Assembly (NCBI GenBank): GCA_025058215.1
Contig: JANXEO010000001.1
Location: 124,001 to 188,000, forward strand
DNA length: 64,000 nucleotides
From: Candidatus Methanomethylicia archaeon
GTDB lineage: Archaea; Thermoproteota; Methanomethylicia; Culexarchaeales; Culexarchaeaceae
Reading direction: 5' to 3'
The position numbers and the translations under genes were made by a program. The notes beneath the pieces are model-generated. The model saw only the letters and a list, made by a program, of their open reading frames with translations. It did no database searches and was not told where the DNA came from. Each line of letters opens with the position of its first letter. Position 1 is the stretch's first letter. Shown here piece by piece: positions 46,873 through 50,646 of the stretch.

Positions 46873-48937
46873 TTAACATTTTGACAAAGCGTAAGTTGCT
46901 GCCATAGTTAAAAGTTGTATTTCTTCTTCAGAGATAACTTCTCCCGGATAAAGTTTTGACTCAAGAATATAATTTTTAAATCTATTAAGAATTTCTGCTT
47001 GATCACGTTCTTTAACAGTTTCCTTCTTCCTTGCGACTAATATTAGGACGCGATTTATCCCTGTCTGCCCTCCCCTTGTTATACTTCTAGTAGGATGTTC
47101 TGAGGGAAGGGGTATTATAGCGGTTATAGAAAATCCAGCTTTTGCTAATGCTTCAACGGCAGCTTTCCAAGCATCCATACTCCTATGACTAAACCAGAAT
47201 ACTAAAAGTCCATAGTCTTTTAATGTTGCTCTCATTTCTTTCAACGCAGCCTCCAACTTTATTTCAAATGCTCTTTTATCCGATTTCCTTGATATTATTT
47301 CATTAGATTTTGGAACAGTCCAGCTGGTTGGACTCCAATCAATTAATATTCTTTTATAGAATAATAGAGATATAGCTGGTTCTAACATTGTTTTCAAAAG
47401 CGGCCAAAAGAATTCAGAAAAGTCACTATATACATGCTGATCATAATACGGAGGATCAACATTAATTACATCAGCTATGCTTTTAAAATTTCGTGATAAC
47501 TTCATTACGTCACACATATAGGTGTAAATCTGACAGTTTTTACCTTCCAGCTTCTCTGCTAACTCTTTTACTACTGGACATATTCCCCCAGCAGTTTTTT
47601 TATTGATCTCTGGCTCATATACCCAATTTAGAGTACGATATGGCACTATTGCTTCTGCATAAATCCCTTCAAGCCTAAATTTATAATAGGATCCAATACT
47701 ATCTCTTATTGTTAAAATATTATGATTCCATGTCGTAATTATTGAATTGAAATCTGCAACTCTATCAACTCCGAGAGCTAAGTATAATCCTAACGCTGCA
47801 CCGAATTCACCCTCTTTTTCTATAAGCTCCCTAATCTTACTTCTAGTATAAGAGATAAGAGTGTCTAATGCTAACGCTTGTCTTGGACTGAAGAGCATGT
47901 TATACTGTTCTATAGGGAATAAGTCTGAGAAAATTTCATCATCTTTCGGAATAGGTATGTTTGGAATAGAAATTAGGTTAGACTTAGAGATATAATCCAT
48001 GTATGCTTTTAATAAAAGTTCCTTATCTGAGTCGTCAACTAATCTGAAGCCTTTTTGTGTTTGAACTGCTATACATCTGTGAGTCAACTCATAAAGCTCT
48101 AAGTTTCCCCGCATTACGTCTATATGCTGTTTCATCCATATTTTGAGAAGTTCTCTTCTCGTAGTAAATTTCTTTTTACTCTTAGTTAAACTTAATGAAT
48201 CATCTCTCCTCACTTCAACACAGGTATCTTTAGAAAGAGGGTACTACTGATTGAATAGGTATGGGTTTACCATTTAGTTTCACTTGCCGGAGTATTATGT
48301 AACCTTCTATTTCAGCTTCATAATATGGTGAAAGCTCTCTTGATGCATAACTTAAAAGAGCTTTAACTTCATTTACTAAACGCTTAAAAAGTTCTAGACC
48401 ATATTTAGCCGGAAATTCTACGGTTGCTCGTAAGAGTAAATAAGAAAGTGGGTTATAGTCACAAGCAATAGTATTAATCCCCAATATCGCAGATTCTAAT
48501 GGTATTGAGTCTCCACCAGCCATTGGATCTAGGATTACGGCCTCCTTTGGAATAATAACTGAAGATAGGTTTGGTGAGAGATAGGATATAAGTGGCGGAT
48601 ATCCTTTAGAAGTTTCCTTAAGTAAATTTTGCCTACTGAAGCCTAAGTACATCATAAAATCATTAGTATTAGTATCATGAGGAAGTAGCGCGGCTAGGTT
48701 AAGAGCTCTTGACACGGATCTGGATCATCTAGCTAACCAGGGGTGAAGATTCTTTATCTTTGGATCATAGAAATCTCTTCCTTCACGTATTATCTTTAGC
48801 TCTTTACATCTTGCTATGTAATCCGGAGTAGGTTTAAAACTCATTTCTATGGCTGCATCTCGGCTTAGCTCTCGGATAGGAATCCATTCCTCTATTAATG
48901 ATTTTCTTGAAGAGAGATTCTTTGAAATATCAACCAT
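46873..48937 (-). pseudogene. DUF1156-type DNA methyltransferase, disrupted
   Basis: Three minus-strand segments together make one large methyltransferase. Segment 1 (48937-48728): SLIEEWIPIRELSRDAAIE and LHPWLAR. Segment 2 (48724-48230): SAM motif ILDPMAGGDSIPLESAIL and TVEFPAKYG. Segment 3 (48213-46873): catalytic VDPPYYD. The break at 48725-48727 is one TGA in frame, exactly where the family has Arg after WLAR (CGA to TGA). The second break, near 48243, is a one-base shift: dropping one C restores ..VVPLSKDTCVEVRRD... DPPY indicates N6-adenine or N4-cytosine methylation. Confidence 0.78.
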
Positions 48938-50030: not shown

Positions 50031-50040
50031 AAAGAAAAAC

Positions 50041-50048
50041 TTTATATG
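50041..50048 (+). promoter_or_regulatory. TATA box for the queT-like gene
   Basis: TTTATATG about 26 bp upstream of position 50067, where the GC-rich leader begins. Gives an expected transcript start of about 50065-50070 and a leader of about 80 nt. Confidence 0.55.
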
Positions 50049-50066
50049 CTAGAAGACTGCTAATAC

Positions 50067-50145
50067 TGGAGTAAGAGGGCGGGTGAGTGGGACCTCCCAC
50101 CCGTTCCGCCGATGAATATAAACCCCGGTGTTGGGAGGTAGAAAA
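50067..50145 (+). promoter_or_regulatory. Structured 5' leader, riboswitch candidate
   Basis: A GC-rich leader in AT-rich DNA. CGGGTG (50080-50085) pairs with CACCCG (50098-50103), leaving a loop with ACCTCC. ACCTCCCA (50092-50099) is fully complementary to TGGGAGGT (50132-50139), which contains the Shine-Dalgarno sequence of the next gene. Alternatives are a GTGGG/CCCAC hairpin (50087-50091/50096-50100) and an outer GGCGG/CCGCC stem (50078-50082/50106-50110). Loop-to-SD pairing makes an H-type pseudoknot, the layout of known preQ1 riboswitches, which often precede queT genes in bacteria. Ligand binding is inference. Confidence 0.6.
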
Positions 50146-50646
50146 TTGAAAAAGAGTTTAGCTATTTCAATCACTTCATTTTTCGCAACTTTATATGCTG
50201 TTATAACAATTGTTGAGACTATTTTAGGGGGACCTTTAAGTTATGGTGTTATTCAAGTGAGAATTTCTGATGCTCTATTACCTCTGCCTATGGTTTTTGG
50301 ATTACCAGCAGCTTTTGGTTTATTCATTGGTTGTATAATAGCAAATGCATATTACATGCTCAGTCCATTGGATATAATGTTCGGTTCATTTGCTAATTTG
50401 ATTTCTGGTATACTTTCAGCAAAATTTAATGGAGGAAGTGCATTATTAGCAGCAGTATATCCAGTAATAGTGGTTACTTTAATTGTTGGATCATATTTAA
50501 CAATACTATTTCCAGAAGTACCTTTATGGCTTATTTACATCGGTGTTGGCACAGGTGAAATAATAGCATGCTTCATAATAGGCATTCCATTACTTAAAAC
50601 AGTTCAGAGATTATTTAAAGGAAGATATTTATTCAATATAATGTAA
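50146..50646 (+). CDS. QueT-type membrane transporter (ECF S-component-like)
   Basis: A 166-aa protein with five or six hydrophobic segments. VIQVRISDALLPLPMVFGLP and the following GLFIGCIIAN...DIMFGSFANL are the QueT/COG4708 signature. In bacteria QueT proteins import queuine precursors; archaea need preQ0 for archaeosine, so uptake of a 7-deazaguanine is a reasonable inference. TTG 50146 lies 7 bp after GGGAGG; GTG 50128 would put the SD inside the gene. It is the first intact core gene after the island. Confidence 0.82.
   Translation: MKKSLAISITSFFATLYAVITIVETILGGPLSYGVIQVRISDALLPLPMVFGLPAAFGLFIGCIIANAYYMLSPLDIMFGSFANLISGILSAKFNGGSALLAAVYPVIVVTLIVGSYLTILFPEVPLWLIYIGVGTGEIIACFIIGIPLLKTVQRLFKGRYLFNIM

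Follow-up and report, generated by a model that had tools for sequence, protein, structure and literature searches.

Does the short GC-rich leader in front of a queT-type gene in an archaeal genome encode a regulatory RNA, and if it does, what might that RNA sense? The question comes from a window of 64,000 nucleotides (the whole stretch of DNA analysed) of a Candidatus Methanomethylicia archaeon whose genome is 46% complete. In this window ACCTCCCA at 50092-50099 is, by direct reading, perfectly complementary to TGGGAGGT at 50132-50139, the Shine-Dalgarno (SD) region of a gene with a TTG start at 50146. The earlier note had pointed to this eight-base match, to the GC-richness of the leader and to a QueT-type gene downstream, and all three claims held. 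GC content is 63% in 50078-50139 versus 30% for the whole window, and the gene (50146-50646, + strand) encodes a QueT-type ECF S-component (PF06177, E 1.3e-31). The start, 6 nt after the SD, was picked by SD spacing and by the aligned start in locus L004; the mechanical open reading frame begins at GTG 50128 and not at TTG 50146.

The same note had begun the leader at 50041, and this had to be corrected, as that position lies within the TATA box (CTTTATATGC, with A-rich sequence before it; 50040-50049, + strand, direct reading). In 135 upstream regions, TATA-like heptamers are concentrated 29-37 nt before the first helix, P1. The spacing between TATA box and start site in archaea is generally known, and from it we infer that transcription begins near 50070, a few bases before P1. 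Given the fixed TATA position and the usual spacing, the queT mRNA should therefore begin with the leader element, which is about 62 nt long. The single-sequence minimum free energy fold of a 108-nt stretch was set aside, because one of its helices uses 50057-50070, upstream of or at the predicted start.

Taken alone, the 8-bp match is modestly unlikely by chance and is not decisive: when 50070-50148 was put through 400 dinucleotide shuffles, 14 of them had a Watson-Crick helix of 8 bp or longer. The folding-energy z-score was -2.0 for the 108-nt stretch and -0.9 for 50072-50160. These single-sequence statistics are weak, and the observation was accepted as real because the leader is conserved in relatives. 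QueT is present in 22 of the 40 genomes of the host's class, and an almost identical leader was found at 14 of these 22 queT loci. A covariance model (R1) built from the 14 leaders gave 78 strong matches (defined as E<1e-7; observed range 3e-24 to 9e-8); these lie in 75 genomes of a phylum-wide sample of 398, and the next best match has E 1.3e-3. A second model, R2, matched 186 of the 257 genomes of one class, including 98 of its 120 high-quality genomes. Thus the covariance search that had been suggested as a check shows that hundreds of related archaea have conserved the leader. In the phylum sample, about 110 genomes with queT are without the motif, and the RNA is therefore dispensable for QueT function. 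No match to the motif pattern was found in IMG/VR, no QueT relatives were found in viral contigs, and a plasmid search gave no match; a search of genome contigs returned only two bacterial QueT loci, both without the motif.

The collected sequences share the consensus GGCGG-GU-GAGUGG-n(0-8)-CCUCC(C)-AC-CCGUU-CCGCC-n(5-16)-AAnCCCGG-nGUn-GG(G)AGG. In the window (all features on the + strand) the 5' arm of P1, GGCGG at 50078-50082, pairs with CCGCC at 50106-50110. Changes on both sides were seen in three of the five P1 pairs, with compensated variants GGCGC/GCGCC (18 distinct sequences), AGCGG/CCGCU, UGCGG/CCGCA, GACGG/CCGUC and CGCGG/CCGCG. P1 is extended by GU at 50083-50084 pairing with AC at 50099-50100; the column tally finds 98% of cells paired in this extension, with changes on one side only. 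The second helix, P2, is a pseudoknot between the anti-SD ACCUCCC at 50092-50098 and the SD GGGAGGU at 50133-50139. It comprises 7 bp here, since A50099 belongs to the P1 extension in the consensus. Over six counted column pairs P2 is 93% paired, and four of the six show both-side changes. Its sequence varies widely across loci while complementarity is kept, as in L021 (TTGCCTCC/GGGGGCAA in DNA letters, UUGCCUCC/GGGGGCAA in RNA form) and L215 (GCTCCG/CGGAGC, or GCUCCG/CGGAGC as RNA). The anti-SD also pairs better with its own tail (6.28) than with permuted tails (5.76+/-0.07, maximum 6.04, 300 permutations).

Over 74 distinct sequences, P1, its extension and P2 have 96.4% of cells paired and 35 cells double-changed. 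None of 500 shuffles was as good as the real alignment, and pairing fell to 49-64% when the partner was slid by one to three columns. The shuffle control ignores sequence relatedness; the slide control allows for it. Two helices, P1 and the pseudoknot P2, are thus supported by covariation, and the overlap of P2 with the SD is shown as well. The idea that an H-type pseudoknot sequesters the SD is thereby supported. The 6-bp stem that had been proposed to close the loop, CGGGTG 50080-50085 with CACCCG 50098-50103, held only in part: the complement is literally present in the leader, and the conserved stem is instead P1 with its GU/AC extension. The proposed stem uses bases of P1 as well as of P2 and shows no double changes; all six of its pairs are kept in just 91 of 131 sequences, and C stands opposite C at the third pair in 20 of the 131.

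One rival explanation is that the element is a DNA operator for a transcription factor and that the complementarity at the RNA level is incidental. It is true that the element begins about 30 nt past the TATA box. However, P1 and P2 change in a compensatory way and P2 overlaps the SD, which makes this reading very improbable.

The predicted strength of the P2 duplex (-13.6 kcal/mol) exceeds that of the assumed 16S anti-SD tail UCACCUCCU on the same SD (-11.3 kcal/mol). In the fold predicted without P2, P1 is kept, the anti-SD is taken up in a GUGGG/CCCAC hairpin and most of the SD is open; this modelled fold is a plausible ON state. A second rival follows from the strength of P2, namely that the fold occludes the SD constitutively, or in a temperature-sensitive manner, without any ligand. 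A thermometer requires helices only, whereas here the unpaired CCGUU, GUGAG and AAnCCCGG elements are the most conserved portion of the leader and the letters of P2 drift freely. We therefore regard a ligand-free fold as very unlikely.

These unpaired elements were tallied over 125 distinct sequences. Loop 1 is GAGUGGG at 50085-50091, and the overlapping positions 50083-50087, read as GUGAG, GUAGG or GUAAG, are nearly invariant. A bulge, CCGUU at 50101-50105, lies on the 3' side of P1 and is present (as CCGTT) in 121 of the 125 sequences; it is an inferred candidate for the ligand pocket. The AAnCCCGG core at 50121-50128, in the loop before the SD, reads AA[C/A/T]CCCGG in 123 of the 125; L119 and L215 have AACCCCAA instead. 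It is likely, though inferred and without binding data, that CCGUU, GUGAG and AAnCCCGG together form a ligand pocket. Contacts between these residues cannot be tested by covariation because the residues hardly vary. A CCG/CGG contact between the bulge and the core is plausible, yet it is almost invariant and is broken in L119 and L215, and it is left unclaimed. In these two divergent members (L119 501-561, + strand; L215 1974-2040, - strand) AAACCCCAAAA replaces AAACCCCGG, and the GUGGUUUG loop is shortened.

The leader does not belong to a described family as far as Rfam can tell. A search of the window leader against Rfam 15 at E<=10, the second check that had been suggested, gave no family apart from a chance mir-320 alignment (E 5.4), and at E<=1 no match fell in the leader at 19 related archaeal loci. 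The same scan reported a sub-threshold PreQ1 match (30.8 bits, E 0.027) before a Clostridia-type, bacterial queT in L002, so the test is able to see the preQ1-I family. The claim that the leader is unlike preQ1-I, II and III is thus supported.

Each of the three classes nevertheless resembles the leader in some respect. Like it, preQ1-I (RF00522, types I-III) is a small H-type pseudoknot with the SD in or beside the pseudoknot (PMC11625349), and the leader does have an H-type pseudoknot with covarying P1 and P2 and the SD within P2. PreQ1-I RNAs control queT and queCDEF genes, exist in translational forms and have been reported from bacterial phyla (PMC11625349). In contrast to them, the leader gives no covariance-model match, has a different P1 and core sequence and carries the CCGUU bulge. 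A further rule of preQ1-I, UC or AC directly before the P1 3' strand (PMC11625349), is not met either, since that place is taken by CCGUU in all but four of the distinct sequences. PreQ1-II (RF01054, COG4708 RNA) precedes the same COG4708/queT family and occludes the SD with its P3, but it has helices P1-P4 and is limited to Bacillota; the leader does not match its model and supports only the extended P1 and P2. PreQ1-III (RF02680) also lies upstream of queT and forms a pseudoknot with an aSD-SD helix. It is about 100 nt long, however, with five pairing regions and an expression platform away from the pocket, and its model likewise fails to match the shorter leader.

The genes under the RNA point to the likely ligand. 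Of the 138 loci, 121 begin with queT, three with queC and 12 with a member of an unnamed membrane family, while in two a contig end makes the first gene unreadable; all 136 readable loci therefore begin with one of these three. The three queC-first loci have the order queC then queT. In 50 of the 138 loci the apparent operon includes a queC, on the strand of the RNA and downstream of it; leaving aside the three queC-first loci, queC comes after queT in most of these. This meets the gene association expected of a 7-deazaguanine riboswitch. QueC converts CDG to preQ0 (PMC13329287), and the assignment is firm in L096 (TIGR00364, 195 bits, above the equivalog cut-off of 150). Archaeosine is made from preQ0, which archaeosine tRNA-guanine transglycosylase (arc-TGT) uses as its substrate. 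This enzyme (TIGR00432) was matched in all 40 class genomes, including that of the window (521 bits), with 37 of the matches above cut-off.

The unnamed membrane family (A7; about 230 aa; loci L073, L098, L105, L143, L155, L172, L173 and L176-L180) is followed by a small zinc-ribbon-like protein in 11 of its 12 loci (66 aa in L073), and in L105 its gene precedes a queC gene. By sequence the family matches nothing in Pfam, NCBIfam or PDB, and it aligns weakly with the QueT profile. Its structure model is of low confidence (mean pLDDT 60), and the best PDB matches, the ECF S-components RibU and BioY, are non-significant. The family is present in G331 and G391, both without a QueT match. We infer that it is probably a stand-in importer of 7-deazaguanines, and the association with the RNA is what points to this unrecognised family.

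QueD was matched in only four of the 40 class genomes, with none in the other 36, and queT-queC occurs in at least 11 of the 40. Since QueD matches are few though queT-queC is common, QueT may import CDG or preQ0. The occurrence of queT-queC without a QueD match suggests salvage of CDG instead of de novo preQ0 synthesis, which raises the question of whether archaea with QueC and no QueD live on imported CDG. Nine class genomes (G010, G017, G020, G021 and G023-G027) have queT-queC operons and arc-TGT and show no QueD match.

The missing QueD, together with the many queT-queC genomes in which imported CDG could feed QueC, also speaks for a third rival: a riboswitch for another ligand, such as CDG, guanine or archaeosine base, which incidentally controls preQ0 import and synthesis. 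This remains a possibility. Against it, both controlled genes converge on preQ0, and end-product feedback is the usual logic. Furthermore, G033 (95% complete) has the RNA before queT but no good QueC match, and the shared ligand should therefore be preQ0-like. We prefer preQ0 as the ligand because import and synthesis (QueT, QueC) and use by arc-TGT meet at this compound; CDG and preQ1 are ranked behind it, an inferred order for which there are no binding data.

A fourth rival keeps the conserved RNA regulator and replaces the small molecule by a protein, for example arc-TGT or another tRNA-modification protein, which would bind the pseudoknot and repress translation. Compact conserved RNAs may serve as protein sites, and arc-TGT is an RNA-binding enzyme matched throughout the class. 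However, conservation is centred on the bulge and loops within an SD-containing pseudoknot, as in the small-molecule preQ1 riboswitches, and the distribution of arc-TGT does not follow that of the RNA, because the enzyme is also present in the 25 class genomes that have no strong match to the motif. A protein effector therefore seems unlikely.

The reading we favour is that the leader is a riboswitch of the translational-OFF type that senses a 7-deazaguanine, with preQ0 as the most likely one. This is likely, although ligand binding is inferred and there are no binding or expression data. In this model the leader would act in cis as a compact RNA with which the queT mRNA begins; P1, lengthened by GU/AC, bears the CCGUU bulge, and its hairpin loop pairs with the downstream SD to form the pseudoknot that buries it. 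The bulge, GUGAG and AAnCCCGG would probably make the pocket. Plentiful ligand would stabilise the pseudoknot and turn off translation of the QueT importer and the QueC preQ0 synthase; when ligand is scarce, the anti-SD may fold into the local GUGGG/CCCAC hairpin and leave the SD free. That binding of the end product favours P2 and turns translation off is proposed by analogy with preQ1 riboswitches (PMC11625349), and the direction is inferred.

The earlier note's suggestion of a new archaeal 7-deazaguanine riboswitch is supported by conservation and by the association with QueT and QueC, both of which are shown. It remains an inference because there are no ligand-binding data. With that reservation, the leader probably belongs to a known functional kind but represents a new structural class, one so far seen in archaea alone. 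A bolder reading, which we also consider likely, is an archaea-specific preQ0/7-deazaguanine riboswitch class, structurally unrelated to preQ1-I/II/III, that controls import and QueC-dependent synthesis for archaeosine. No precedent for an archaeal or preQ0 riboswitch was found in the open PMC literature; priority is not proven, because this search left out most subscription journals. Only a few classes of riboswitch are known from archaea, and descriptions of the preQ1 classes come from bacteria. An SD-burying RNA that is conserved, covaries and stands before queT or queC in hundreds of archaeal genomes is a directly testable candidate for a preQ0 sensor, and, if it is one, the supply of the archaeosine precursor in archaea is regulated by RNA.

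A different leader, about 115-140 nt long, precedes queT in G358, G378, G035 and G219 (L192 1325-1438, +; L193 439-554, +; L006 2017-2132, -; L219 ~1500-1640, -). It is rarer than the first leader: its model, R3, found no others in the 398 genomes, and each of the four stands immediately ahead of queT. The conserved sequence is GGCGGACGAGG..CCGCCGUUACUC..GAGGAGAAAUUCUCCCUCCC, and the helices vary with compensation, for example in P1 of L219. Possible pairing partners of its CUCCCUCCC are the SD and the 5' GAGGGAGG. Rfam gave no match for L006 or for L012 (G008), which may be a shortened relative. If this unrelated leader is likewise a sensor, there would be two independent archaeal solutions.

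Some minor observations concern the surroundings of queT. At L007 (28-571) a motif-less queT gene directly follows a CRISPR array, whose repeat resembles Rfam CRISPR-DR45 below threshold. In the window, the minus-strand neighbour of queT encodes an archaeal CCA-adding enzyme (TIGR03671, 455 bits; cut-off 281), which together with the arc-TGT match identifies the host as an archaeon. Three successive ORFs at 46873-48937 (- strand) resemble pieces of one DUF1156-type, anti-phage-associated methyltransferase gene, and they may represent a broken gene.
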